From Paludibacter jiangxiensis (GTDB taxonomy: Bacteria; Bacteroidota; Bacteroidia; Bacteroidales; Paludibacteraceae), in contig CAMDGD010000010.1 of the NCBI GenBank assembly GCA_945897785.1, positions 1 through 47,364 on the forward strand: a DNA stretch of 47,364 nucleotides, read 5' to 3'. The notes under the pieces are model-generated. The model worked only from the letters and a program-made list of their open reading frames with translations, was not told where the DNA came from and made no database searches. Position numbers and translations under genes: made by a program. Each line of letters begins with the position of its first letter. Positions within the stretch are counted from its first letter, which is position 1. This document shows, piece after piece, positions 27,964-42,963 of the stretch.

Positions 27964-28037
27964 GGGGTATTAGCTCATCTGGCTAGAGCGCGACACTGGC
28001 AGTGTCGAGGTGAGCGGTTCGAGTCCGCTATACTCCA
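27964..28037 (+). tRNA. tRNA-Ala, anticodon GGC
   Basis: A full cloverleaf can be drawn. The acceptor stem is GGGGTAT/ATACTCC with the G3:U70 wobble that is the alanine identity element. The D-arm is GCTC/GAGC, the anticodon stem CGACA/TGTCG has loop CTGGCAG, and the T-arm is AGCGG/CCGCT. No CCA is encoded. Its 3' end from 28022 onward is duplicated at 38235-38255, marking the integration site of the island to the right. Anticodon GGC reads GCC and GCU codons. Confidence 0.95.
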
Positions 28038-28042
28038 CTAAA
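28022..28042. repeat. Left attachment-site repeat of island (attL)
   Basis: 21 bp including GTCCGCTATACTCCACTA, covering the T-stem and acceptor 3' side of tRNA-Ala plus five bases beyond. It is identical to 38235-38255. Insertion into a tRNA 3' end that regenerates the gene is the usual signature of tyrosine-recombinase elements. Confidence 0.9.
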
Positions 28043-28070: not shown

Positions 28071-28119
28071 TTACACCCATATTTACACCCATATTTAATA
28101 AGTTTATTAATATGGGTGT
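28071..28119 (+). promoter_or_regulatory. TTACACCCA motifs and hairpin inside left end
   Basis: TTACACCCAT occurs at 28071-28080 and 28083-28092, and inverted (ATGGGTGT) at 28112-28119. The second and third form an 11-bp perfect stem ACACCCATATT/AATATGGGTGT (28085-28095, 28109-28119) with a T-rich tail, so it may also terminate tRNA-Ala transcription. Related ACACCCA pairs lie inside the right end at 38089-38110. I infer arm-type integrase sites. Confidence 0.55.
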
Positions 28120-28202: not shown

Positions 28203-31200
28203 ATGATAGAAACTCTTATCACCCAATTTTCAAATAAAAACCTTGTTAACCTACTTAGAAAACAAAACTCTTCATTTATCGAACAAGAAGAAAATTTATC
28301 TGAGATTGTTTCTTCGTTTGATAAGTTTGACGAACTCATTAAACTTGGTGAAATTGAGTACGACAACAAGGATGTACTTATGGTTTTTACCTGTCAATAT
28401 CTGGGTGAATTATCTTCAAGAAGTTCCAAAAAAGCTCAATATGAAATAGCGAAAAAGGCTCTGAAAGAAGATTTTAAAGATGGAGCTGTGTTTGTGTTTT
28501 ACGATGAGGTTGGTAGGTTTCGTTTTAGCTTTATAAGAAGGAATTATGGTGATAAAAGCCAAAAATATACACCATGGAAACGGTACACTTATTTTGTAGA
28601 TGCCAACCAGGATAGAAACCGTACGTTTGTTGAAAGAATTGGGACTTGTAAATTTGATTCGCTAGATAATATCCAAGATGCATTCAGTGTAGAGAAGCTT
28701 ACCAAAGAATTTTACAAGGAATTATCAGATTGGTACTTCTGGGCTATCAAGAATGTTTCTTTTCCGAATGATGTTAAAGATGATGCTGATGACGAGAAAT
28801 ACAACTCGGAAAATATAATAAGATTAATAACCAGGCTTGTTTTTGTTTGGTTCTTAAAACAAAAAGGATTAGTTAAAAATGAACTGTTTGATCCAGCTGC
28901 ATTATCAAATATCTTAGTAGCTTTTGAAGCTGAAAGTGAAACACAGAATAACTATTATCGGGCTATTCTACAAAATCTATTCTTTGCAACCTTAAACCAG
29001 GAGATTGATAAACGGAGTATTGCTGAAGACAAAGGGTTTGTTTTAAATCAAAACACCTATACAATTAAAAACCTTTACCGTTATGAAATCGAATTCATTA
29101 ATGGTTTGGATGAGATTATGGAATTGTTTAGTCAAGTTCCATTCTTAAATGGTGGCTTGTTTGAATGTTTAGACCATAAGGAAAAGGATGGTAAAATTTA
29201 TGACTGGGATGGTTTTAGTAGAAATCCAAAATACCAGGCTAGAATACCGAATGCCTTATTTTTTGCAAAGGAAAGCAAGGTAGATTTGAGTGGTGAGTAC
29301 AATGATAAAAAAATGAAAGGGGTAAAAGTTTCTGGTATCATTGAAATACTAAACCGCTATAACTTTACGGTAGAAGAAAACACCCCTGTTGAAATTGAAG
29401 TTGCACTTGACCCTGAATTGCTGGGTAAAGTATTTGAAAATCTATTGGGTGCATTTAATCCAGAAACACAAGAAACTGCTCGTAAACAAACTGGCTCGTT
29501 TTATACTCCCCGTGAGATTGTAAACTATATGGTGGATGAAAGTTTGATTGCATACTTCCAATCCAAAATACCAGAGATACAAGAAGAAATACTTCGTTCA
29601 TTATTTAGTTACGATGATGAAACTTTAGAGATAGCTGAGGAGCAAAAAGAATCATTAATACAGGCTGCATTCGATTGTAAAATACTAGACCCAGCTTGTG
29701 GCTCTGGTGCTTTTCCAATGGGTATATTACAACAAATGGTGCATGTACTTAAAAAGCTTGATCCCGATAATTCTCATTGGAACAATGTGGTATTGACCCA
29801 AACGATGAAGGACTTTGAAAAGGCAGAAAAGTTAAGTGATGAAGATAAGGATGAACTTCGAACAGAAATTGAAAAAACGTTTGATGCAGGATTAAATTAT
29901 CCAGATTATGCCCGAAAGTTACATATTATTGAAAACTGTATTTATGGTGTAGATATACAAAGTATAGCGGTGCAAATTAGTAAACTGCGTTTCTTTATCT
30001 CTTTGGTATGTGAGCAAAGGCGTAATACCGAAGCTGACGAAAACTTTGGCATACGCCCACTACCAAACCTTGAAACGAAGTTTGTGGCTGCTAATACGCT
30101 AATTGGACTTGAAAAAACGGAAGAAGACTTAGAACTTTTTAATGATTCACACATTAAAACACTAATTGATAAACTGCAACATGTACGCCACCGACAATTT
30201 TTGGTAACTAACGCCACTGAGAAAAAACGATTGCGTGATAAAGACCAAGTTATCCGTGAAGAAATTGAAAAAGTGGTTTCGGAGCTTTACAAGAAACACA
30301 AAGATGATAATAAAGCAATATATGTTAGTGGAAAAGCAACACTGGAGAAACAGCTGGAACTGATTGATAAAACCATTAATCGCACTGCTGTTTCTACAAC
30401 TATTTTTGGTGATCAGGTTGAAAAAACCTACAATCCATTAGAAAAACAAAAAAAAAACTTACAGAAAAAGATTGATGAATTAACAAAAAATATTGAAGGT
30501 GCTGGTGAGTATACTCGACTTGATGCTGTTGTATCTCTAGCCAAACAACTAACCGCTTGGAATCCTTACGACCAAAACGCATCTTCTCCTTTCTTCGATC
30601 CAGAGTGGATGTTTGGTTTACCTAATCATCGTCATGGCTATTTTGATGTGGTGATTGGAAACCCACCCTACGGAGCAAAATTAACAAAAGATGAAAAAAA
30701 TATATATAAAATAAAATATCCTGAAAGTCAATTTAAAATTGATACGTATTCATTATTTATTCTACATTCTATAAGCATTCTTCGTGAGATGGGCTTTTGT
30801 TCGTTTATAATTCCTAATACTATATTAGATAATTACTTTGAAGAGAATGTAAGAAGAAAATTATTACTTAGTAATAGAATTTATGAGTTATGTGATTTAA
30901 ATGATAAGGTTTTCGAATCTGCTGTAGTTCATGCAATGATTTTTTCATATTTTAAAGATTCTAGTATTAGTGATTACAACATAAAAGTTAACGTTTCAAA
31001 TAACTTATATGCTAGTTCTTCATTAGTTTCTAATAGATTTTTTGAAAAACAAGATAATTGTATTTTTCAGTTAAGGAGCCATGGGAATAATAATTTTATT
31101 GATAAATTAAGAATAAAAAGTGAGCGTCTTGAGAATGTTTTAGACATAAGGCAAGCTATAAAGTCTGGAGATGATAAGCTGTTTTTAACAGACACACAGA

Positions 31201-31784
31201 TTGATGATAATTATAAACCAATATTAAGAGGTAAAGATGTTTTTCGATACAACTTTTTTTCACCTAATAAATTTATTTATTATGGGAAGCATCTTGCTTG
31301 CCCTCGTTCTAAAGAGATATTTGAACAACCGAAAATCTTAATAAGAGAAGCAGGAGCTATTATTACTGCAACATATGATGATTCCAATTTTTATATTATG
31401 TCATCTTTATATAATGCAATATCTAAAGATTCAGGATTTGATTTAAAGTATTTATTAGGGTTAATCAATTCGAAACTTTTTCAATACCTAATGAACCAGT
31501 CTACTTTTGAAAAAACAAAAGGAGCATTTACAAAAGCTAAAATATATCACTGGTATAGTTTACCAGTAAAAATAACTGATAAACAGAAAATCATAATTGA
31601 TTTAGTTGATAAAATTCTAAAATTTAATAAAACAGGTGATGCAGTAAATAATGATGAATTAGAACAGAGAATCGACAATTTCGTTTACCATCTTTATGAA
31701 CTTACTTATGAAGAAGTAAAAGAGATAGACCCCGAAATAGAGAGCAAGATAAGTGAGGCGGATTATAATGCGATAGAGGTGTAA
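28203..31784 (+). CDS. Large DNA adenine methyltransferase (Eco57I/PglX-like)
   Basis: 1193 residues. It contains N6-adenine methyltransferase motif I DPACGSGAFPMG at residues 496-507 and motif IV NPPYGA at 820-825; the long gap between them includes a charged coiled-coil insertion (about 650-770). FVWFLKQKGLV near 215 and KQTGSFYTPREIVNYMV near 428 are typical of the Eco57I/type IIG-like class. After motif IV comes a target-recognition-like part (LRGKDVFRYNF). I see no clear PD-(D/E)xK nuclease motif at the N-terminus, so cutting may depend on partners. It opens a four-gene operon; a TATCTTTA box is at 28167-28174. Probable role: marking self DNA in a restriction-like defence. Confidence 0.85.
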   Translation: MIETLITQFSNKNLVNLLRKQNSSFIEQEENLSEIVSSFDKFDELIKLGEIEYDNKDVLMVFTCQYLGELSSRSSKKAQYEIAKKALKEDFKDGAVFVFYDEVGRFRFSFIRRNYGDKSQKYTPWKRYTYFVDANQDRNRTFVERIGTCKFDSLDNIQDAFSVEKLTKEFYKELSDWYFWAIKNVSFPNDVKDDADDEKYNSENIIRLITRLVFVWFLKQKGLVKNELFDPAALSNILVAFEAESETQNNYYRAILQNLFFATLNQEIDKRSIAEDKGFVLNQNTYTIKNLYRYEIEFINGLDEIMELFSQVPFLNGGLFECLDHKEKDGKIYDWDGFSRNPKYQARIPNALFFAKESKVDLSGEYNDKKMKGVKVSGIIEILNRYNFTVEENTPVEIEVALDPELLGKVFENLLGAFNPETQETARKQTGSFYTPREIVNYMVDESLIAYFQSKIPEIQEEILRSLFSYDDETLEIAEEQKESLIQAAFDCKILDPACGSGAFPMGILQQMVHVLKKLDPDNSHWNNVVLTQTMKDFEKAEKLSDEDKDELRTEIEKTFDAGLNYPDYARKLHIIENCIYGVDIQSIAVQISKLRFFISLVCEQRRNTEADENFGIRPLPNLETKFVAANTLIGLEKTEEDLELFNDSHIKTLIDKLQHVRHRQFLVTNATEKKRLRDKDQVIREEIEKVVSELYKKHKDDNKAIYVSGKATLEKQLELIDKTINRTAVSTTIFGDQVEKTYNPLEKQKKNLQKKIDELTKNIEGAGEYTRLDAVVSLAKQLTAWNPYDQNASSPFFDPEWMFGLPNHRHGYFDVVIGNPPYGAKLTKDEKNIYKIKYPESQFKIDTYSLFILHSISILREMGFCSFIIPNTILDNYFEENVRRKLLLSNRIYELCDLNDKVFESAVVHAMIFSYFKDSSISDYNIKVNVSNNLYASSSLVSNRFFEKQDNCIFQLRSHGNNNFIDKLRIKSERLENVLDIRQAIKSGDDKLFLTDTQIDDNYKPILRGKDVFRYNFFSPNKFIYYGKHLACPRSKEIFEQPKILIREAGAIITATYDDSNFYIMSSLYNAISKDSGFDLKYLLGLINSKLFQYLMNQSTFEKTKGAFTKAKIYHWYSLPVKITDKQKIIIDLVDKILKFNKTGDAVNNDELEQRIDNFVYHLYELTYEEVKEIDPEIESKISEADYNAIEV

Positions 31785-31791
31785 CTAAAGT

Positions 31792-32766
31792 ATGAAAGTT
31801 AACAAAACATATCGTAGTCTACTTGATAAATCAATAGCGTCAATGTTGTCAGCTATTGAGATATACAATAAACCTAACTTTGCATATAGAGAAGAAACTT
31901 TTGCAATACTGGCTGTAAATGCTTGGGAGCTTTTACTTAAAGCCTACATTCTGAAGATTAACAAGTACAACCTAAATAGCATATATTTTCTAGAGCCTGT
32001 AAAAAAGAAAGATGGTCAAAACTCAACAAGAAAGAAGCCTGTATTGAATAATATTGGGAATCCTAAAACAATTTCAATTTCGGATGCACTTATTAGGTTA
32101 AGTAATCAAAAGAAGATTTCTAAGAACTTAGTTGATAGTATCGAATCAATTATCGAATTAAGAGATAATGCAGTTCATTTTATTAACGAGAAATCAATGG
32201 TAAAAGAAATACAGGAATTAGGTTTCGCATGTATTAAAAACTATATGTCTATTATAAGAAAATGGTACTTGGAAATTGATTTAAGTGATTATAACTTTTA
32301 CTTAATGCCATTAGCATACGTTGATTCTAAAGTTTATGCTGATACAGTTATTACTTCAGAATCCCAGAATTATATTGATTTTATAAAATCGAAATTAGAA
32401 GAAAAGGATGAGACTGATGAGGAATTCGATATTGCAATTTCTATAGATATAAGTTTCAACAAAACGAACTCTTTTGAGGGTTTAGGGTTTGTTTATCATA
32501 AAGATGGAGTTAAAATAAATCTTTCGGAAGAAGATATCAAATTAAGATTCCCATTGACTCATAATAAGATTATTAATTCAGCAAAATCAAGATATTCTAA
32601 TTTTAAAGCAGATAGTAGTTTCAGGAGTTTAATAAAAGAAGTTAAGAAAAATCCACATTTACATTATTTGAGAAAACTTGATACTGATAATACTAAAGAA
32701 AAAGGTAAGCCTTTTTACAGTTCAAATATTTGGCAAGTGTTTGACGAACATTATAACAAAAAATAA
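31792..32766 (+). CDS. DUF3644 protein with HEPN-like Rx4H motif
   Basis: 324 residues. The N-terminal half matches DUF3644: LLDKSIASMLSAIEIYNKPN, then ILAVNAWELLLKAYILK and IIELRDNAVHFI. The last contains Arg124-x4-His129, the Rx4-6H motif of HEPN ribonucleases, in a helical context. The function of DUF3644 is not established; an RNase toxin or abortive-infection role is inferred from the motif and setting. The C-terminal part (about 200-324) has no recognised domain. Starts 7 nt after the methyltransferase stop and is followed 26 nt later by the AlbA_2 gene. Confidence 0.75.
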   Translation: MKVNKTYRSLLDKSIASMLSAIEIYNKPNFAYREETFAILAVNAWELLLKAYILKINKYNLNSIYFLEPVKKKDGQNSTRKKPVLNNIGNPKTISISDALIRLSNQKKISKNLVDSIESIIELRDNAVHFINEKSMVKEIQELGFACIKNYMSIIRKWYLEIDLSDYNFYLMPLAYVDSKVYADTVITSESQNYIDFIKSKLEEKDETDEEFDIAISIDISFNKTNSFEGLGFVYHKDGVKINLSEEDIKLRFPLTHNKIINSAKSRYSNFKADSSFRSLIKEVKKNPHLHYLRKLDTDNTKEKGKPFYSSNIWQVFDEHYNKK

Positions 32767-32792: not shown

Positions 32793-34421
32793 ATGGCATT
32801 ACCTATAAACATTGAAGATTTAGTACACGGTCGTACCGTAGAATGGGAACGATTGGAATTTAAAAAAGGATGGAATCCAGAAGTTGTGATTCGTACCATG
32901 TGTGCTTTTGCCAACGATATAAACAATTGGGGTGGTGGGTATATTATTGTAGGTATTGACGAAGTAGATGGTCAACCTGTTCTTCCACCAGCAGGTTTGC
33001 AACAAAACCAGTTAGATCCTATCCAAAAAGAAATTATTCAATTAGGTCATCGGATATCGCCAAATTATTTTCCCATAAGTCAACCTTATGAATTGGATGG
33101 TAAACATATTTTGGTGCTTTGGTGTCCCGCTGGAGATAATCGTCCATACCAAGCCCCTGAAACTATGGGGAAAGGTGCACCCTATCATTATTATATTAGA
33201 AGAACTTCTAACAGTATTCAAGCAAAAGGAGACGATTTAAGACAACTTCAAGAACAAACAGCCCGTATCCCCTTTGATGACAGAGTTAATAATAGAGCTA
33301 CCATCAATGATTTAGATTTGGGATTAATCCAGGCGCATCTCCACGAGATTAAAAGTGATTTGTTTGAAGAGAGCTTAACAATGCCCTTTAAGGATCTTTG
33401 CCGTGTCATGTTAATTGCAAAAGGTAGTGATGAAGATATTCGGCCTGTTAATGCTGGTTTACTTTTCTTCAATAAAGCTCCCGAAACTTTCTTTCCTCGC
33501 ACCTGGATAGAATTGGTTTGGCATAAAGATAATTCAAGTACTAATTTCACCGAACATTACTTTAAAGGTGAATTACAAAAACAATTGCGTGATGCGCTTT
33601 CGTTTATTCAAACCAATATACTTTCTGAGAAAGTAGTTAAACATGCTTATGTAGCCGATGCAGACCGTTTCTTCAATTTTCCTTATGCAGCCATAGAAGA
33701 AGCCCTTTCAAATGCGGTGTATCATAAGAGTTACGAATTGGATTCACCTATTGAAATACAAGTTTGGACAGATAAGATTGAGATATTAAGTTATCCTGCT
33801 GCAATACCTCCCGTAAATAAGGAAGAGATGAGTTCAAAGCGCAGAATCATTGCCCGTCAATATCGGAATCGTAGAATTGGTGATTTTTTAAAAGAACTTC
33901 ATTTAACCGAAGGTCGTGGTACTGGTTTCCCTACCATACACGATTCCATGGAAAAGAATGGTTCTCCAAAGCCAGCTTTTGATTCGGATGATAGTTCTTA
34001 TGTGCTGGTAACTTTACCTATTCATACTCAATTTAATGTTCCATCTGAGGCAGAAAGTAACGGAGCTAGTAACGGAGTTAATCAATTGTTATTTAGGAAT
34101 TTGAGTGATTTTATTGGGTATATTAACGGAGCTAGTAACGGAGCTAGTAACGGAGCTAGTAACGGAGCTGAGTTTATACTTGAACAATTTGTACATAGCA
34201 AGGTAAAAGATATGCTTATAGCTACTGATTCGTGGATTAGTAGAGAAAAATTATTTGAAACTATTGGACTTAGCAATCAATCAACAAATAGGGAAAGATA
34301 TTTAGATCCGTTATTGGATTTTGGTTGGATTGAAATGGAGTTTCCTGAAAATAGAACACATCCGAAACAACGATATCAAATATCTGAAAAAGGAAAGAAA
34401 GTATTATCACTTGTTAATTAA
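32793..34421 (+). CDS. Schlafen/AlbA_2 domain protein with ATPase-like and winged-helix regions
   Basis: 542 residues. The AlbA_2 putative nucleic-acid-binding domain lies at about 15-150 (WERLEFKKGW, FANDINNWGGGYIIVGIDE). A GHKL-ATPase-like C-terminal half of the COG2865 kind follows at about 297-410, with AIEEALSNAVYHKSYE (N-box like) and GRGTGFPTI. A low-complexity linker of repeated Ser-Asn-Gly-Ala (nt 34056-34079, 34122-34169) precedes a winged-helix end (TDSWISREKLFETIGLSNQS). Proteins of this family act as transcription or defence regulators, often with such variable linkers; the role here is unproven. Third gene of the operon, helicase 5 nt downstream. Confidence 0.8.
   Translation: MALPINIEDLVHGRTVEWERLEFKKGWNPEVVIRTMCAFANDINNWGGGYIIVGIDEVDGQPVLPPAGLQQNQLDPIQKEIIQLGHRISPNYFPISQPYELDGKHILVLWCPAGDNRPYQAPETMGKGAPYHYYIRRTSNSIQAKGDDLRQLQEQTARIPFDDRVNNRATINDLDLGLIQAHLHEIKSDLFEESLTMPFKDLCRVMLIAKGSDEDIRPVNAGLLFFNKAPETFFPRTWIELVWHKDNSSTNFTEHYFKGELQKQLRDALSFIQTNILSEKVVKHAYVADADRFFNFPYAAIEEALSNAVYHKSYELDSPIEIQVWTDKIEILSYPAAIPPVNKEEMSSKRRIIARQYRNRRIGDFLKELHLTEGRGTGFPTIHDSMEKNGSPKPAFDSDDSSYVLVTLPIHTQFNVPSEAESNGASNGVNQLLFRNLSDFIGYINGASNGASNGASNGAEFILEQFVHSKVKDMLIATDSWISREKLFETIGLSNQSTNRERYLDPLLDFGWIEMEFPENRTHPKQRYQISEKGKKVLSLVN
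34056..34169 (+). repeat. 12-bp in-frame tandem repeats
   Basis: Units of AGTAACGGAGCT encode Ser-Asn-Gly-Ala. Two units (second ends GTT) occupy 34056-34079, and four units (first begins ATT) occupy 34122-34169, with 42 bp between. The units in each block are nearly identical in DNA, which indicates recent expansion. Gain or loss of a unit keeps the frame. Confidence 0.9.
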
Positions 34422-34426
34422 GAATT

Positions 34427-37400
34427 ATGTCGCAAAACTTTATCACCAACAATACAGGTCAAAAGGCTCTGAAAAGTAGATTAAACACACTTATTTCAAT
34501 AAGTGAAGAATTGAAATTCCTAGTGGGATTCTTTTACTTTTCAGGTTGGAAAGAAGTGTATGAATCTTTAAAAGCGAATGAAAACATAAAGCTTCGACTT
34601 TTGGTGGGCTTACAAGTTGATAAGCTTGTTTATGATAATTTGGTGGAATTTGGTTACCAAGAAGAACGTACTTCTGATGAGGATAGGTTTAATGCTTTTA
34701 TGAGTTCACTTAGCAAGGCACTAAATACCGATAATGTAGATACCGAGGAATTTTATAATCAAGTGTTTTTCTTTTTGGAAATGATTGAACAGGGTCGTTT
34801 AATCATTCGCAAAACCAAGAACCCTAACCATGCTAAGGTTTATATCTTTAAGCTCAATCAAGCACAAGCTGATATACAGGGAATGAAGGGTCAGTTTATT
34901 ACAGGTAGTAGTAATCTTACTTCAGCTGGATTAGTGGGTCAGGAAGAATTTAATGTGGAGATTAAAGATTATGGTTTTGAAGATGCTGATAGCTATTTTG
35001 AAGGGCTATGGAGTGAAGCTACACCCATAACAGAAGTTCCACCTAAGAAACAAATTCTAATTGATTACGTGGGCACCAAAACACTGGCATCAAAGGTGAG
35101 CCCTTATGAAGCGTATGCGCTTATTTTAAAGACCTACTTAGACCTACAACAAACCAAACATATTCGTTCATCCGTAATTGAATTGTTAGCTAAGAATGGC
35201 TTTAAAGAGTTCGCATATCAGATAGATGCAGTAAACCAAGGTTTAAGTGTTATCAATGAATATAATGGTGTAGTAATAGCTGATGTGGTTGGACTTGGTA
35301 AATCAGTAATTGCAGCATTAATTGCCAAGAACTTGGATAAACGAACTATGATTATCTGCCCTCCAGGACTTATTGGAGATAAAAATGCAGACAGCCCAAC
35401 AGGATGGTATGAGTATGTATATAATTTCGAGTTGAACTGTGAGGTAGAAAGTCGTGGAAGACTGGTTGATCTTGCCAATTCTATTGATAACAAGAATATA
35501 GAAGTGGTTATCATTGATGAAGCCCACTATTTCCGAAATCAAGATACCGAAGATTATGAAGCATTATTGAAGATATGTCGTGATAGAATTGTAATATTAT
35601 TAACAGCAACACCATTCAATAATTCACCTGCCGACATTTTCTCACTACTTAAACTATTTATTGTTCCTGGTAAGTCTGGAATTACAATTGATTATGATTT
35701 AAATGCGCTTTTTGTTGGTTATGGTAACCGATTCAAAAAGTTGTCGGATATATTGAAGTTTAATAATTCGAAAAAAGCCGACAAAAACGAAAAAGCGAAA
35801 AAACTATATATTGAGATGTTTGGTGAAGACACCATAAATATTCCCAAAGTAAGGCACGAAACGAAGCGACTAGCTAACCAAATTAAGAATGTAATATCAC
35901 CCGTAATAATCCGTAGAAATCGCTTGGACTTAAAGAATGACTTTGTTTATTCGAAAGAGGTTACAGAACTTTCAACGGTAAAAAATCCTGTGGAGTTATT
36001 TTATAATCTCACATCAGCGCAAAGTGCATTTTATGATAAAGTGTTAACCGAATACTTTGGTGAAGATGGTGGATTTACGGGAGCAATTTATCAACCGTAT
36101 GTTTACGAGAATGAAGCTAAAGATAATGAGAAATTAGATGAAGCTGGAAATAGAGCAGCCGTAATCCAGGCTAACTTATTCGACTTCATGCGTAGGTTGT
36201 TGGTGAAACGCTTTGAAAGTTCATTTGGGGCTTTTAGCGAGTCTATTAACCGCTTCTTAAACATTCATATCAGAGTTAGTGGATTTATTGAAAAAACGAA
36301 CGGAAAATACATCCTTGATAGAAAGCTAATGGACTCTTTGTTGGAAGAAGAGGATATGGATGTGATACTTAAAACCCTAGATGATTATGAAAATAATGTT
36401 TTGGCTAAAAAGGTTCCTAAAAACAATACTGTTTACGATACAACTAAATTTAAACGCAAAACAGAATTCTTTCAAAATATTGAAAAGGACATTAAACTGT
36501 TAACCCGAATTAAATCTGAGTTGGCAGTATTAGATATTGTAGAGAACGATCCCAAACGAGATGAGGTATCTGTACAAATTGAAAAGATACTTGAAGAAAA
36601 CGGTGACCGAAAGATTATTGTTTTCTCTGAATATGTTGATACAGTAAAACATTTGGAAGCCTATTTTAGAAATAAATTTGGTAAAAGAATGATTATTTGT
36701 GATGGTGGTATGACCCCCACACTACACAAATCGCTTAATGCTAATTTTAACGCTCAACATAAGGGTGAAAAAGAAAATGAGTACGATATACTAATTACCA
36801 GCGATAAGCTCTCTGAAGGCTTTAATTTGAACCGTGCTGGTGTTATTATCAATTATGATATACCTTGGAACCCAACCAGGGTAATTCAGCGTGTTGGTCG
36901 TATCAATCGTATCGGTGCAAAAGTATTTGATGAATTGTATATCTATAACTTCTTTCCAAGTGAAGCTGGTGCTGGAGTTGTTCAGATTCGAGAAATCGCC
37001 ATGCAGAAAATGTTCTTAATACATAACGCTCTGGGTGAAGATTCAAAGATGTTTGATGAAGATGAAGAGCCAACGCCAGCAAAGTTATTTAATAAGGTAA
37101 ATGATAACCCAGATAATGATGGTGAAGAAAGCCCTGCGACACAAATCAGAAACAAATACTTTGAGATTGAACTAAAGCATCCAGAGGTAATAACACGAAT
37201 ATCCGATTTACCAACAAGAGTAAAATCAGCTAAGCCATTTGCTGAAAACCAGGTTTGTGTTGTTAGACGTAAGGGGTTAAGTTTGTTTACTCACTTGATA
37301 AATGATACCCATGCAGATAAGCTTGAAGTTACTGAGATTACATTTGAAGAGTTATTGAACCTGGTTGAATGTGAATTCGATACCCCTCAATTGATGCTTT

Positions 37401-37792
37401 CACCTAAATTCTGGAGTGCTTATAATGAAGTGAAAGATTTCAAAACAGCAAGTAAAAAAGGATTACCACCAAAATCATTAGAAGCAAGAGCACATGAGAA
37501 TTTGAAATGTGCTTTGAAGGTATTTAATTATTCAGATGAAGTACTTATCAAATTTGTCAAGGATTTAATTACTGATATTGAGAAATACAAAACACTATCG
37601 GATAGAACACTTGGTCGGTTAGCCAGAAATCCATTAACCATTAAATCCAACGAAACAGAAATCAAAAACTTCAAAGAAGAAGTGCTTTGGATAAAACATA
37701 GCCTTGGTGCTGATTACCTTGAACGGATTCTTAAACGGATTGAACACCAGAAAAATGAGGTGGTTATTGCGGTGGAGAATATTAAAAGTTGA
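34427..37792 (+). CDS. SNF2-type helicase with N-terminal PLD-like domain
   Basis: 1121 residues. The N-terminal phospholipase-D-like part (about 1-200) has His135-Ala-Lys137 (HAKVYIF) and GSSNLTSAGL, but the Asp of classical HxKx4D is Lys142, so nuclease activity is uncertain. The helicase core shows VVGLGKSVIAALIAKN (Walker A, GLGKS 289-293), IIDEAHYFRN (DEAH 364-367), LLTATPFNNS, DILITSDKLSEGFNL and IQRVGRINRIG (motif VI, about 820-830). It is superfamily 2, DNA-translocating. It is the last gene of the operon. It probably translocates on DNA to find or degrade unmodified targets with the methyltransferase. Confidence 0.88.
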   Translation: MSQNFITNNTGQKALKSRLNTLISISEELKFLVGFFYFSGWKEVYESLKANENIKLRLLVGLQVDKLVYDNLVEFGYQEERTSDEDRFNAFMSSLSKALNTDNVDTEEFYNQVFFFLEMIEQGRLIIRKTKNPNHAKVYIFKLNQAQADIQGMKGQFITGSSNLTSAGLVGQEEFNVEIKDYGFEDADSYFEGLWSEATPITEVPPKKQILIDYVGTKTLASKVSPYEAYALILKTYLDLQQTKHIRSSVIELLAKNGFKEFAYQIDAVNQGLSVINEYNGVVIADVVGLGKSVIAALIAKNLDKRTMIICPPGLIGDKNADSPTGWYEYVYNFELNCEVESRGRLVDLANSIDNKNIEVVIIDEAHYFRNQDTEDYEALLKICRDRIVILLTATPFNNSPADIFSLLKLFIVPGKSGITIDYDLNALFVGYGNRFKKLSDILKFNNSKKADKNEKAKKLYIEMFGEDTINIPKVRHETKRLANQIKNVISPVIIRRNRLDLKNDFVYSKEVTELSTVKNPVELFYNLTSAQSAFYDKVLTEYFGEDGGFTGAIYQPYVYENEAKDNEKLDEAGNRAAVIQANLFDFMRRLLVKRFESSFGAFSESINRFLNIHIRVSGFIEKTNGKYILDRKLMDSLLEEEDMDVILKTLDDYENNVLAKKVPKNNTVYDTTKFKRKTEFFQNIEKDIKLLTRIKSELAVLDIVENDPKRDEVSVQIEKILEENGDRKIIVFSEYVDTVKHLEAYFRNKFGKRMIICDGGMTPTLHKSLNANFNAQHKGEKENEYDILITSDKLSEGFNLNRAGVIINYDIPWNPTRVIQRVGRINRIGAKVFDELYIYNFFPSEAGAGVVQIREIAMQKMFLIHNALGEDSKMFDEDEEPTPAKLFNKVNDNPDNDGEESPATQIRNKYFEIELKHPEVITRISDLPTRVKSAKPFAENQVCVVRRKGLSLFTHLINDTHADKLEVTEITFEELLNLVECEFDTPQLMLSPKFWSAYNEVKDFKTASKKGLPPKSLEARAHENLKCALKVFNYSDEVLIKFVKDLITDIEKYKTLSDRTLGRLARNPLTIKSNETEIKNFKEEVLWIKHSLGADYLERILKRIEHQKNEVVIAVENIKS

Positions 37793-37865
37793 TTTTGAGT
37801 TAGGCTTTGTTGAAACATTTATTAGTGGGGTTGGGGAGTAATAGAATTTTAAATATTAGTTTAAG

Positions 37866-38078
37866 TCAGAATTTACAATTATAAAATGGGAAGAAACCTT
37901 GATTATTATAACAACCGTGCTTAACTTTACTGGATGCATCATCCCATTTTTCAAATGGAATAGTATAACCAGAATACAAATCACATCTTTTACCATCAAA
38001 TGTAACTCTTATTCTAATAGGAAGATTTACAGTTGAATTCTTTCTTTGTTCTAATGAAATTTTTACTCGGTGTTTCAT
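37866..38078 (-). pseudogene. Truncated tyrosine integrase (arm-binding domain only)
   Basis: 70 codons. RVKISLEQRKNS, then IRIRVTFDGKRCDLYSGYT and FEKWDDASSKVKHG match the N-terminal arm DNA-binding domain of Bacteroidota tyrosine recombinases, which are normally about 400 residues. After residue about 61 it turns into unrelated residues and stops. The core-binding and catalytic domains (R..HxxR..Y) are not found in the window. It sits 157 nt inside attR, pointing away from it, the normal integrase position. Thus a relic; it may still bind arm sites. Confidence 0.8.
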
Positions 38079-38088
38079 TTTAAAAGTT

Positions 38089-38110
38089 TTACACCCAAAT
38101 ATACACCCAT
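38089..38110. promoter_or_regulatory. ACACCCA motifs inside right end
   Basis: TTACACCCA (38089-38097) and ATACACCCAT (38101-38110) sit just upstream of the integrase stub. They match the TTACACCCAT motifs at 28071-28092 in the left end. Together they look like paired arm-type binding sites. Confidence 0.5.
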
Positions 38111-38234
38111 TTTTTATAATAACAAAACGAACTTAAATAAACCTTAAATAGAAATGCGTGAATATAACCAATTACATATCTGGTATTTGCAGTAAAATGT
38201 GAACTTTAACGAAATATAGCGAACCTTAAAAATA

Positions 38235-38255
38235 AGTCCGCTATACTCCACTAAA
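38235..38255. repeat. Right attachment-site repeat of island (attR)
   Basis: Identical 21-bp copy of 28022-28042, the 3' end of tRNA-Ala. It lies directly before a hairpin with T-run that probably was the original tRNA-Ala terminator. Confidence 0.9.
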
Positions 38256-38291
38256 TAAAAAAGCAATTGTTCAATAACAGTTGCTTTTTTT
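38255..38291. terminator. Bidirectional terminator (displaced tRNA-Ala terminator, rsmD end)
   Basis: Stem GCAATTG/CAGTTGC (38263-38269, 38278-38284) with one G-U pair. It is flanked by A-runs on the left and T-runs on the right, so it works both ways. It lies 8 bp after attR and overlaps the rsmD stop. Confidence 0.8.
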
Positions 38292-38820
38292 ATTCAAAAA
38301 AACTAAAATGCACATTGCCGTAATTTCGATGTTCTTTAAAATGGGCATGTGAATCAAAACTAATGTTGGAAGGATGCTCCAAAATAAAAACGCCCTCCTC
38401 TTTCAACAGGCCATTTTCGAAAATCATATCGGGCAATGCTTCTAAATTAGGTAGTTGATACGGAGGATCGGCAAAAACTAAATCAAACCGAGTAGCACAA
38501 GAGCGGATAAACCGAAAAACATCTGCTTGCAACAAATGAATGGTATCTATCTGTAAATCCTTAGCTATTTTGCGTATGAAAGTTGCCTGAATCTTACTCA
38601 TCTCTACTGCCGTTACCTGCACACACCCTCTGGAGGCAAACTCCAAACTTATAGAGCCCGTACCGGCAAACAAATCGAGCACCGTTAATGCGTCAAAATC
38701 TACACGATTAGCTAACACATTAAACAAGGCTTCTTTGGCAAAATCGGTTGTTGGCCGAGCCGTAATATTCGATGGAGGTTGAATTCTTCGGCCTTTATAT
38801 TTTCCACTAACTATACGCAT
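38290..38820 (-). CDS. rsmD: 16S rRNA (guanine966-N2)-methyltransferase
   Basis: 176 residues from the ATG at 38820 (two codons earlier is another ATG at 38826). MRIVSGKYKGRRIQPP is the family start. LDLFAGTGSISLEFASRG gives SAM motif I (about 45-62). LVFADPPYQLPN holds the catalytic DPPY near 122-125. It methylates G966 of 16S rRNA in assembled 30S subunits. Downstream neighbour is the tRNA-Ala island. Confidence 0.95.
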   Translation of the reverse strand: MRIVSGKYKGRRIQPPSNITARPTTDFAKEALFNVLANRVDFDALTVLDLFAGTGSISLEFASRGCVQVTAVEMSKIQATFIRKIAKDLQIDTIHLLQADVFRFIRSCATRFDLVFADPPYQLPNLEALPDMIFENGLLKEEGVFILEHPSNISFDSHAHFKEHRNYGNVHFSFFE

Positions 38821-38913
38821 ATGCAATAAAACAGCTTACAAAGAAAAAAGAAAACGCAAAGTACTCTAATTTCTTGAGCTTTGCGTTCTCTTTATTATCT
38901 TCAATTTCTTTTG

Positions 38914-39591
38914 TTACGATTCCCAGTTTCCAGATATACTAGGTTCTGTTACCGAACCTATTTTTAAACCGGGGTATCTTTCTAATTTCTTTTGTAAATC
39001 AATTAAATTTATCAACTCTTGTTTATCTAAATCATGTAAAAACAAGGTGTAAGGAGCCTTAATCTCAAGCAAGGGTATTACCATTTGGTTCTTTTCTTGC
39101 GAACCCACTTCAATCTCGAATTGCTTGCCTCCGCTGTAAGGAATTTCGGCAATTTTTGCTATGGTTTCCTCGGTATATACTCCAGCATAAAGGGTTTCAA
39201 TAATACCTACATAAGTAGTATCTCTACTAAACCCTTGCAATCCATTTTCGGCAATTTCCTTGACATTACCTTTTTTTACAATGGCCAAAGCGGTTTCTTC
39301 TGTCAATCCCTTATCTAACTGTTCGTCACTTAGCGTTCCTTCTTTTTTTACCATTTTCATCTGCCCTTCTTTTAAAAAGAGTATCAATGTATCAATGCTG
39401 GCTGTGTAGCGTCCGTGCTGATTTTTATACTCAATCTCTGCTTTCCTAATATCTAACAAAGCAGCAATTACTGCTTGTTCTCTATCGTTCCGCTCTTCTT
39501 CAAAACGAATGGGAGTTAGAATACTCATTACACAAAAATAGCCTAATACGGCAATGGATATTCCTAATAAAATTTTGATTACTTGTTTCAT
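38914..39591 (-). CDS. Membrane-anchored hypothetical protein
   Basis: 225 residues. One N-terminal membrane helix (about 5-25, IKILLGISIAVLGYFCVMSI) is followed by a long helix containing ALLDIRKAEIEYKNQHGRYT. This resembles the pseudopilin-like layout of an N-terminal hydrophobic helix and a YKNQHGRYT-type turn. No prepilin peptidase site was seen. The remainder, including GLQGFSRDTTYVGIIETLYAG, is not recognised. Likely faces the periplasm. A minus-strand TAAATTTG box (39642-39649) may drive it; the gene is divergent from the RecD-like helicase. Confidence 0.65.
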   Translation of the reverse strand: MKQVIKILLGISIAVLGYFCVMSILTPIRFEEERNDREQAVIAALLDIRKAEIEYKNQHGRYTASIDTLILFLKEGQMKMVKKEGTLSDEQLDKGLTEETALAIVKKGNVKEIAENGLQGFSRDTTYVGIIETLYAGVYTEETIAKIAEIPYSGGKQFEIEVGSQEKNQMVIPLLEIKAPYTLFLHDLDKQELINLIDLQKKLERYPGLKIGSVTEPSISGNWES

Positions 39592-39613
39592 GGGTTCTGT
39601 ATTATTTTTAGTT

Positions 39614-39649
39614 TACTTTTGTTTTTCTAAACATGCAAGCGCAAATTTA
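39614..39649. promoter_or_regulatory. Divergent candidate -7 boxes
   Basis: TACTTTTG on the plus strand (39614-39621) and TAAATTTG on the minus strand (39642-39649) both fit TAnnTTTG. They lie between the leftward hypothetical gene and the rightward helicase. The plus-strand start would give a leader of about 110 nt. Confidence 0.4.
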
Positions 39650-39738
39650 TAAAAGAATTTGAAATTGATGATTTTTATAGGGTAATTTTATCAAAATAAT
39701 TTACTTACTCTTGGGCTTTGCTATAAAAACAGGTTAAA

Positions 39739-41148
39739 ATGCTAACAGATTTTCTATCCGATAAAATCCGCCAACAACTTCCGTTCGAACCTACCGAAGA
39801 ACAAACACAATTAATAAACGAGTTAAGCCTGTTTTTATTATCCAAAGAAAAAGACAGTCTTTTTTTACTCAAAGGCTATGCCGGTACGGGAAAAACTTCC
39901 ATCATTGGATCACTAATTAAAGTACTTAACGAGGTACAAAGCAAAACGATGCTCATGGCTCCTACGGGTAGGGCTGCAAAAGTATTTACTAGCTACGCCA
40001 ACCATCCGGCAACTACTGTTCATAAAAAGATTTACCGACAAAAATCGGCTTCCGACTTTCATTTCGAACCCGCCATAAACTTACATAAACACACCTTATT
40101 TATTGTTGATGAAGCGTCAATGATTAGCAACACTCAAAGCGGATCGAGCATCTTTGGTTCCGGTCGACTACTGGACGATTTAATTCACTTTGTGTACAAC
40201 GGCGAAGGCTGTCGTTTATTACTCATGGGCGATGATGCTCAGTTACCTCCCGTAGGCCAACAGGGTTCACCGGCACTAGAAAAAGGGGTGCTCGAAGCCT
40301 ATGGGTTTACCGTTCACAATTTTAGCTTAAGCAAAGTGGTGAGGCAAAGCGAGGCAAGCGGCATCTTATTTAACGCAACAGCCATACGCAACGAAATGAC
40401 GCAATGGAACCCAAGACAAAAACCAACCCTTACTATAAGCAATTTTTCCGACATCAAAAGAATTAAAGGCGATGAACTGATAGATGCGCTAATAGCAACC
40501 TATAATAATACGGGTATAAGCAACAGCTTGGTGATTACCCGTTCAAATAAATCGGCATTGCTTTACAATAGAGGCATCCGAAATCAGGTATTGCAAAAAG
40601 AAGAAGAACTATCGTCGGGCGATTTGCTAATGGTAAATAAAAACAATTATTTTTGGAGTAAAAACTACGAAAACCTTGAATTTATAGCTAACGGAGATTC
40701 GTTTGAGGTTGTTCGGATAAAAAAACAACACGAATTGTACGACTTGCATTTTGCCGATGTTTCGCTCCGTTTTCTGGATTATGATATGGAGATTGATGCC
40801 CGCATACTTATGGAGTCCTTGTATGCAGAAACACCTGCCGATATTGAGAATTTAAACCGAAAACTATTCGAAAAGGTAAGTGAAGATTATATGGATATCG
40901 GGAATAAAAAAGACCGGATGAAAAAGATTATGGCCGATGAATATTACAACGCCCTTCAAGTAAAATTTGGCTATGCAGTAACCTGCCATAAAGCGCAAGG
41001 CGGACAGTGGGATACGGTTTTTATCGACCAAGGGTATCTGCCCGAAATACTTAATAGCGACTACCTAAATTGGTTATATACAGCTATTACTCGAGCGGTA
41101 GCAAAGGTGTATCTGGTAAATTTCTCCGACGATTTTTTCAATAAATAA
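39739..41148 (+). CDS. RecD-like AAA DNA helicase
   Basis: 469 residues of superfamily 1B. Walker A is LLKGYAGTGKTSIIGSLI (about 43-60), followed by APTGRAAKVF (Ia). Walker B is LFIVDEASMISN, then LLMGDDAQLPPVGQQGSP (III). The C-terminal VTCHKAQGGQWDTVFID and LNWLYTAITRAVAKVYLV are motifs V-VI. This is shorter than RecD2 and lacks its N-terminal extension. The Bacteroidota version is usually annotated ATP-dependent RecD-like helicase; function in repair is inferred. Confidence 0.9.
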   Translation: MLTDFLSDKIRQQLPFEPTEEQTQLINELSLFLLSKEKDSLFLLKGYAGTGKTSIIGSLIKVLNEVQSKTMLMAPTGRAAKVFTSYANHPATTVHKKIYRQKSASDFHFEPAINLHKHTLFIVDEASMISNTQSGSSIFGSGRLLDDLIHFVYNGEGCRLLLMGDDAQLPPVGQQGSPALEKGVLEAYGFTVHNFSLSKVVRQSEASGILFNATAIRNEMTQWNPRQKPTLTISNFSDIKRIKGDELIDALIATYNNTGISNSLVITRSNKSALLYNRGIRNQVLQKEEELSSGDLLMVNKNNYFWSKNYENLEFIANGDSFEVVRIKKQHELYDLHFADVSLRFLDYDMEIDARILMESLYAETPADIENLNRKLFEKVSEDYMDIGNKKDRMKKIMADEYYNALQVKFGYAVTCHKAQGGQWDTVFIDQGYLPEILNSDYLNWLYTAITRAVAKVYLVNFSDDFFNK

Positions 41149-41270
41149 CACATCAAATCTTTTGGTTATTATTTCTCACTATCTTCCTGAATATCTTATA
41201 ATTAAAAAAGAATGTTCCAGTAATGTGAAAATAAACAATTACCACGCATTATTATTTATTAAACTTTTTT

Positions 41271-41278
41271 TACTTTTG
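41271..41278 (+). promoter_or_regulatory. Candidate -7 box of lipoprotein-OmpA operon
   Basis: TACTTTTG (TAnnTTTG), 26 nt before the lipoprotein start codon. The -33 site is not clear. Confidence 0.5.
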
Positions 41279-41304
41279 AAGCTTAATGTAAAAAACCTAC
41301 CATT

Positions 41305-42963
41305 ATGAAATTAACAACTCCTAAAGTATTGGCAGTAATACTTGCCGCAGGAATGCTTTCTCTATCGTCCTGTATTGACGAAAGTATCGACCTGAAAAAT
41401 CTATCGTCAGATGTTCAAGTAGGCGGAAATATTGCGGCACCACTTGGTGAAATGACAGTTACTATAGATGATTTAATTAACGAACTTACAATTGATTCTA
41501 CCTTAGGTATCGAAATTAATGAACGAAACGGTGTTGTTAATATATATTTCTCAGACACCCTATCTTTCGAAAACCCTGCAAATGTAGACTTAACAAATTT
41601 TGGAAGCATACACAAGGTACTAACACCGGGTGTAAGCATAGGTTTACCGGTTGTTATTCCGGTAGGCGACCAAACCTACACCATAACAGAAACATACGAT
41701 TTTAACGACATAAACATCGACACTACCGAACAACGGGTAGATAGTATTCGCTTCACCAATACAACCATCAAAGCAACTATAGAAACGAATCTTCCACCCA
41801 ATTTTATAAGTATTGATATTGAACTACCCGTCGAGTTTGAAGGTGAATCAGGTCAGGTTGTTAAAATGGATTTAACAGGACCAACAACAACCCGAAATTT
41901 TACGGCGGAGAACTTTATTGTTCGCTCAGAAGACGGACAACTTTCTACTACTTTCCCTATTAATGTAATTGCGCATGGCGACGGGGTAACAGGGTTAAGT
42001 GGCACCGACTCTATTGCTATCAATATTTCGCTTGAGTCTGCAACTTATATTGCTTATGGTTATTTTAATTATGGCGAAAATTTAGTACAAGACAGCCTTG
42101 ATGTGAAATTCGATTTGTACTCCGAACTACCTGATGGCTCAATGATTTACCCTAAAAACCCTGAATTCCAATTTGACCTGATTAGCAATGTTGGGATACC
42201 ATTAAAATTCAATATTAACGAACTAAAAACTTTCGAAACTAGTGCTACACCAACAGTAACTAAATCAGCTTCTTTTAGCGGAAATCCTACATTGAGCAAA
42301 AACATTACCGCGGCGCCAAACACAACTACAACAGCTACCACAACAGTTACTTTAAACAACGAACCTGCCAATGGAGAAATAGACGAACTGTTTAAAATTA
42401 AAGTAGATAGCATCTCAACTAAATTTGGCTTTGGCATTAAGGATATGCCTATTAACACTTCAGGACAATTTGTTAGCTCCAACAGTAAAATTGATATAAA
42501 GTTGGGCATCAATGTTCCTTTCTGGTTAGATGCCGGAAGTGTTTTAAGCATGACAGACACACTTAAGAATGTAGGTAACGACCTTACAACTATTTTAGCG
42601 GATGACAATATCAAAGAGGCTTACTTGCGACTTAAATATACCAATATGCTGCCAATGGGCCTTGCTTTAAGCATGCAACTAATGGATGAATCTTATGCCG
42701 TAATAGCTCTAACAACTTTATATGAATACGAAATTAAAGCAGCATCAGTGAATGCTCAAGGAGAAGCAACTACGGCTTCCGAAAAAACCATCGACATCAA
42801 GTTTGACAAAAACGCTATCAATGAGTTAAAACAAACCAAACACATCAAACTTATCGTTACGGCTCAAGGGTACGATGCTAGTTCGCAAATGAAATTCAGA
42901 ATGCAGGATTGGTTGAAAATAAAGCTCGGCGCTTATGCTATCGGTCAATATATGTCTAAATAA
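41305..42963 (+). CDS. Lipoprotein, function unknown
   Basis: 552 residues. The signal sequence ends LSLSSC, a lipobox, with the lipidated Cys at residue 23. The mature protein is rich in short beta-strand-like stretches and Thr/Ser (for example NTTTTATTTVTLNNEP), with no domain I recognise. It is probably anchored in the outer membrane. The OmpA gene starts 33 nt downstream, so the two are likely a functional pair. The DNA and codon usage resemble the flanks. Confidence 0.72.
   Translation: MKLTTPKVLAVILAAGMLSLSSCIDESIDLKNLSSDVQVGGNIAAPLGEMTVTIDDLINELTIDSTLGIEINERNGVVNIYFSDTLSFENPANVDLTNFGSIHKVLTPGVSIGLPVVIPVGDQTYTITETYDFNDINIDTTEQRVDSIRFTNTTIKATIETNLPPNFISIDIELPVEFEGESGQVVKMDLTGPTTTRNFTAENFIVRSEDGQLSTTFPINVIAHGDGVTGLSGTDSIAINISLESATYIAYGYFNYGENLVQDSLDVKFDLYSELPDGSMIYPKNPEFQFDLISNVGIPLKFNINELKTFETSATPTVTKSASFSGNPTLSKNITAAPNTTTTATTTVTLNNEPANGEIDELFKIKVDSISTKFGFGIKDMPINTSGQFVSSNSKIDIKLGINVPFWLDAGSVLSMTDTLKNVGNDLTTILADDNIKEAYLRLKYTNMLPMGLALSMQLMDESYAVIALTTLYEYEIKAASVNAQGEATTASEKTIDIKFDKNAINELKQTKHIKLIVTAQGYDASSQMKFRMQDWLKIKLGAYAIGQYMSK

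Follow-up and report, generated by a model that had tools for sequence, protein, structure and literature searches.

The window analysed here (47,364 nucleotides) is the whole of contig C10 of a Paludibacter jiangxiensis draft genome of 1.91 Mb in 77 contigs, which is 85.8% complete. A complete tRNA-Ala (GGC) gene, located by ARAGORN at 27964-28038 (+), is the integration target of an island. A 21-bp core repeat, attL (AGTCCGCTATACTCCACTAAA, 28022-28042, +), spans the 3' end of this gene and is repeated directly and perfectly at the far end of the island as attR (38235-38255, +), and the spacing between the two repeats gives an island length of 10,213 bp. Two inverted half-sites, TATAGCGAAC (38215-38224) and GTCCGCTATA (38236-38245), occupy 38215-38245 at attR; they are complementary at 9 of 10 positions, lie 11 bp apart and are probably core-type integrase sites. 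The chromosomal right flank begins with an rsmD-like methyltransferase gene (38290-38826, -; PF03602), which we take to be rsmD.

The empty site is found in the same-genus genome G002, in which the tRNA-Ala gene lies about 40 bp from rsmD and the flank aligns with the right flank of the window immediately after the repeat. The island is also absent behind tRNA-Ala in the other two same-genus genomes listed (G001 and G003). On this comparison of aligned sequences the segment is an insertion. The island carries no functional integrase of its own; an integrase stub (37866-38078, -) lies at its right end.

Cargo of the island

The cargo genes, all on the + strand, encode an Eco57I/type-IIG-like methyltransferase of 1193 aa (28203-31784; PF07669 and PF12950; PADLOC REase_MTase_IIG), a DUF3644 protein of 324 aa (31792-32766; PF12358; PADLOC PDC-S19, E 2.6e-115), an AlbA_2/Schlafen-type protein of 542 aa with a HATPase_c_4 region (32793-34421; PF04326 and PF13749) and a PLD/HKD-SNF2 helicase of 1121 aa (34427-37792; Pfam, PADLOC and alignment with G411), respectively. 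In genome G411 the methylase and helicase genes are adjacent. The island helicase is 79% identical to the G411 protein over residues 1-1119. The methylase is 70% identical to its G411 counterpart (L106) over residues 1-941 but only 40% identical in the C-terminal part (1003-1193), which carries a TaqI_C specificity domain, the pattern that an exchange of the target-recognition part would produce. In G416 homologues of the AlbA protein (65%) and the helicase (60-61%) are encoded side by side. In composition the cargo resembles a modular defence unit of the restriction type.

Genes for a methylase and an HKD-SNF2 helicase also recur as neighbours in distant genomes (L081, L106, L107, L110, L111 and L112), with DUF3644, AlbA or other genes beside or between them; one of these accompanying genes is presumably RhuM/BRO-like. 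The AlbA gene of the island contains an in-frame 12-bp tandem repeat encoding Ser-Asn-Gly-Ala units (34056-34080 and 34122-34170), and similar repeat DNA is present in the G416 homologue. The length of this repeat could vary without a frameshift.

The truncated integrase gene and its relatives

The stub is a 70-aa reading frame with its ATG at 38078. As the original prediction had it, the frame contains the RIRVTFDGKRCDLYSGYT segment, and its assignment to the integrases is confirmed by BLAST matches and by the arm-binding family PF17293 (Arm-DNA-bind_5), which it matches with 27 bits against a curated cut-off of 22.6 (E 6.8e-6). This is the only Pfam match of the stub at E <= 0.1, and both the core-binding domain PF13102 and the catalytic domain PF00589 are absent from it. 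The prediction that the window holds no catalytic domain also stands, for PF00589 was found at five places in the assembly and at none on this contig. No family matched the stub in PHROG (E <= 0.1), NCBIfam (E <= 0.01) or PADLOC (E <= 0.001). The reading frame, the start codon and the promoter-like region are all undamaged.

Stub residues 11-58 correspond to profile positions 5-53 of 87, whereas the profile match of two intact relatives extends to position 86 or 87. Homology to the arm domain covers residues 1 to about 61 and excludes about the last nine, FFPFYNCKF, for which alignment gave nothing convincing. Among 393 genomes of the order, 30 (own genome included) match the stub at E <= 0.001. 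The 35 non-own matches are 29-48% identical to its N-terminal 60 or so residues; in 33 of them the frame is 389-469 aa long, and the remaining two, of 275 and 141 aa, are cut off by the end of a contig or locus. Since every one of the 35 alignments stops between stub residues 50 and 64, the stub is, judged by sequence, the front of an integrase that ends inside the arm domain. Intact integrases with the order PF17293-PF13102-PF00589 (e.g., L091, 427 aa) resemble it in the N-terminal 60 or so residues, and the stub lacks the end of their arm domain as well as PF13102 and PF00589.

Two records of the phage collection and three of the plasmid collection match the stub with 39-41% identity, and two are annotated as site-specific integrase. 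A scan of viral_contigs with the stub protein returned nothing. Two further matches were judged to be due to chance: one in genome_contigs covers 12 residues, and one on contig C38 of the own genome (E 0.07; BLAST 2.3e-4 in a small set) lies in a pyridine-nucleotide oxidoreductase with iron-sulphur domains.

The structure of an intact arm domain, modelled with phage-collection sequences, consists of three strands and a helix (residues 67-91; mean pLDDT 94.5). The stub model, built with the same family sequences, retains strands at 3-9, 18-27 and 30-41 and has no helix (mean pLDDT 80.3); block means are 80-92 over residues 1-50, and the tail (64-70) falls below 50. The three-stranded sheet is the DNA-contacting part of known arm domains. 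The arm domain of the IntTn916 subgroup has been described as three strands and one helix, and similar secondary structure is reported for the arm domains of all six subgroups in the published survey (PMC8138268). Set against the intact model and this fold, the stub as modelled is less than an arm domain, with the sheet kept and the 25-residue helix lost. The description of the gene as an integrase reduced to its arm-binding domain is thus right as to a truncated island integrase, but about one third of that domain, including the long helix, is missing.

A Foldseek search of the PDB with the intact arm and stub models gave no match at E <= 0.001, and an intact integrase used as the query of a PDB sequence search had no match at E <= 0.01. 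In a second structure comparison the best match of the intact arm model was a membrane protein (Z 5.2), and an AP2 DNA-binding domain scored Z 3.8 (rmsd 2.7, 57 aligned residues); both values are too weak to use.

Short arm frames were also surveyed in 295 genomes of the class. PF17293 is present in 174 of these, and 11 of the 150 listed matches fall in frames shorter than 200 aa. Nine of the 11 were retrieved with their flanks and compared with intact integrases (E <= 1e-4). Three frames (L223, L226 and L228) reach contig ends, one (L230) has its stop 163 bp from a contig end, and in two (L224 and L225) a frameshift separates the arm part from a catalytic part downstream. The short frames of G496 (also read as L196) and G536 were judged contig-end cases by their coordinates. 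L231 (G476:C9, 684-2251) is an arm-only fragment directly beside a complete second integrase and is possibly a snapshot of tandem island accretion that leaves stumps. L227 and L229 are lone arm pieces, the two clear lone cases among the 150 class matches listed. Lone arm pieces are rare and scattered among the matches listed, as decay would give.

Arm-type sites and a candidate promoter box

Each end of the island has, just inside it, the double arm site GGGTGTA-N5-GGGTGTA. The motif search located two ACACCC words 12 bp apart on the left (28071-28097, +), a third, inverted ACACCC word at 28113-28119, and on the right the arrangement TGGGTGTA-TATT-TGGGTGTA just upstream of the stub ATG (38090-38109, -). 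A search of the window for ACACCC/GGGTGT pairs with words 12 bp apart, allowing up to three mismatches, returned 28073-28090 and 38091-38108, both exact; the mean expectation was 0.18, and two of 100 shuffles reached two matches. In the 1.91-Mb draft, with up to one mismatch, only these two end sites were found, against none for the reversed control. The same GGGTGTA word, 12 bp apart, stands directly before the start codon of many of the integrases nearest by arm sequence, and five of six viral_contigs stretches with TGGGTGTANNTTTGGGTGTA run into an arm-integrase frame. The ends of the island consequently look like those read by the GGGTGTA-pair type of integrase.

The right-hand pair also overlaps a candidate promoter. 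A computed -7 box, TATATTTG (38096-38103, -), fits TAnnTTTG and lies across both arm words. A TTTG at 38123-38126, 19 bp from this box, is a candidate -33 element by its word and spacing. The -7 consensus of Bacteroides is given as TANNTTTGY (PMC12632263); the base after TATATTTG is G in the window and in the other TTTGGG-type members, so that the final Y does not fit.

The same arrangement was sought in 22 integrases less than 70% identical to one another, the stub included, drawn from 33 loci picked by arm similarity to the stub. In 14 of the 22 an 8-bp word recurs after 12 bp with at least 7 of its 8 positions identical, and the next best distance between 8 and 30 reaches 8. A TAnnTTTG box lies across the repeat in 12 of these non-redundant integrases: the window (38090-38126), L008, L009, L047, L049, L053, L059, L060, L062, L063, L065 and L069. 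In 500 mononucleotide shuffles of the same upstream regions the mean was 0.018 and the maximum 1. The box offset is 6 or 7 in the 11 in which the box-overlapping repeat is also the best repeat. The arm words vary by enzyme (TGGGTGTA, TGTATGTA, TTGTGTGT and TTGTAGGT), and the geometry is constant. The arrangement is not general, for a repeat over the -7 box was found in only 2 of 39 usable phage-collection integrases (80 fetched, reduced to 42 representatives, three of which were dropped for short upstream regions).

In Escherichia coli, integrase genes with att sites over the promoter have been described, and several, such as intS of KplE1, are negatively autoregulated (PMC2951348). The integrase-binding att sites of intS overlap the integrase promoter, as the arm words in the window overlap a candidate promoter; autoregulation of this type has been established experimentally for full-length proteins (PMC2951348), whereas here it is predicted. 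Arm repeats that straddle a -7-like box suggest that arm binding would block the integrase's own promoter, i.e., autorepression. No account of arm repeats over an integrase promoter box in Bacteroidota was found among the open-licence papers searched. The arrangement suggests that the promoter of an integrase may reveal its arm word, which could then be sought at element ends, and this by-product may matter more than the grounded island itself.

State of the island and alternative explanations

The explanation that we favour, at a probability of about 80%, is that the stub is the product of decay by deletion, which grounded the island and left its att and arm sites intact. The integrase of which the stub is the remnant would once have moved the 10.2-kb island into tRNA-Ala (GGC). 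A deletion would then have removed everything after codon 61 or so: the remainder of the arm domain together with both the core-binding and the catalytic domain, a loss of about 365 codons as judged by 427-aa relatives. A product that lacks the catalytic domain could not cut or join DNA, so the island would be grounded and inherited with the chromosome, and its defence-like cargo genes meanwhile keep open frames. That the island is locked in place, as the original prediction proposed, is its most likely state. The stub itself is most likely an inert, non-functional leftover, because a helix belonging to the fold is lost and the sheet alone is kept. The undamaged frame, start and promoter-like region are a point against decay, being features that need not survive in an old pseudogene.

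The deletion is inferred, as no intact version of the island was found in the loci examined. The DUF3644 protein has five non-own matches in the 393 order genomes, and the helicase is matched in 26 non-own genomes at E <= 1e-100; in the plasmid collection they occur in five and four records, respectively. No arm integrase was found beside the cargo genes at the five DUF3644 loci (stub alone as query) or in 7 of the 26 helicase genomes (stub plus six integrases), several of these contigs being short. Neither a second copy of the island nor a copy with an intact integrase gene, for which relatives were to be compared, was present among the order-sample loci examined. Two other histories were considered and fit less well. 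A helicase truncated by the integrase deletion does not agree with the seven best non-own end-reaching matches, which align to residues 1118-1119 of 1121 and show its C-terminus to be intact. A stub from an element older than the cargo is less likely, as the left end bears the same arm word as the stub side.

Mobilization in trans would make the island a satellite in practice, one that does without an integrase of its own and relies for excision on integrases of other elements that read the same arm words and the tRNA-Ala core. Since neither the att cores nor the arm-site pairs are damaged, an incoming integrase with matching arm and core specificity might in principle excise the island. Integrase frames whose start is immediately preceded by the identical arm word occur in the same family, in genomes G027 and G059, and both are cut by contig ends. 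We consider mobilization in trans unlikely as the present mode of life of the island. The exact pair stands before an arm-integrase frame in only two of 199 other family genomes sampled, with both frames cut by contig ends, and the bare GGGTGTA-N5-GGGTGTA motif is not enriched in the sample of 200 family genomes, where it occurs at 14 places (in 12 genomes) and the reversed control at 18. No integrase using this tRNA-Ala core was identified, and the lack of a second island copy in the order-sample loci also speaks against such traffic. The check put forward in the original prediction, for an intact integrase elsewhere in the genome whose arm domain resembles that of the stub, was negative in the 85.8% complete assembly: PF17293 has no match at E <= 10 besides the stub, and the integrase frames at the five PF00589 places gave no BLAST match with the stub at E <= 1. 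The draft thus contains no candidate enzyme that would act on the island ends by its arm domain. Movement in trans is accordingly conceivable from the surviving repeats and arm-site pairs, and no helper was found in the assembly.

A working regulator would bind the arm sites, repress its own promoter and block excision by incoming integrases. We regard this as very doubtful. In its favour, neither the promoter-like region nor the start is damaged, the candidate -7 box is straddled by the arm repeats, and the sheet is retained at block-mean pLDDT 80-92 over residues 1-50; by analogy with the att-overlapped, negatively autoregulated integrase promoters of E. coli (PMC2951348), such a role might be imagined. 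The stub has, on the other hand, a low-confidence tail in place of the helix, it has no match in PHROG, NCBIfam or PADLOC at the cut-offs given above, and none of its 35 close arm matches is a lone stub. Homologues of 70 aa do not stand alone widely, with 0 of 35 close cases and two among the 150 class matches listed, and the suggestion that the protein regulates excision gained no positive evidence. A search of the open-licence literature for dominant-negative or lone arm domains yielded nothing usable. Even more doubtful is a domesticated, sheet-only arm protein that would be transcribed from a promoter within its own sites, sit on the arm sites at both ends of the island, repress itself and shield the defence island from excision by incoming integrases of like specificity.

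An assembly or base-calling error that hides a full-length gene is the least probable explanation: the genome is a draft, and contig ends do truncate several other short arm frames in draft assemblies, but here the nearest contig end is 9 kb away, the stub is flanked by a full-length helicase gene and attR, the 73 bp between the stub stop and the helicase stop leave little room for a frameshifted remainder, and tblastn with intact integrases (33000-42000, E <= 1e-4) detected none.

Several known systems resemble the grounded island. Cryptic (grounded) prophages, in which the recombinase or an att site is mutated, are likewise fixed while their cargo persists (PMC6379469); here the element is a 10-kb defence-type island, and its att and arm sites look intact. 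The 10K genomic island of Riemerella anatipestifer at tRNA-Arg is a close known system, but it encodes a full-length integrase (1356 bp), excises, and is bounded by a 53-bp repeat, compared with 21 bp here (PMC6764341). The suicidal archaeal integrases of the SSV type, split into Int(N) and Int(C), also leave an N-terminal piece at one end of the element (PMC8371274). A split of that kind was rejected for the stub, since the att repeat begins 157 bp upstream of its start instead of inside the gene, and no catalytic piece (PF00589) is present on the contig.

Taken alone, the locus is an ordinary case of an island that has lost its integrase, with unusually legible ends. It is a clean example in which att cores and arm-site pairs can be read from the sequence, and it could serve to test mobilization in trans in this bacterial group. 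Two partial PF00589 frames of 114 and 75 aa (L006 and L007) are located on contigs C59 and C34 of the same draft (G000), so this island is not the only site of recombinase remnants in the genome.
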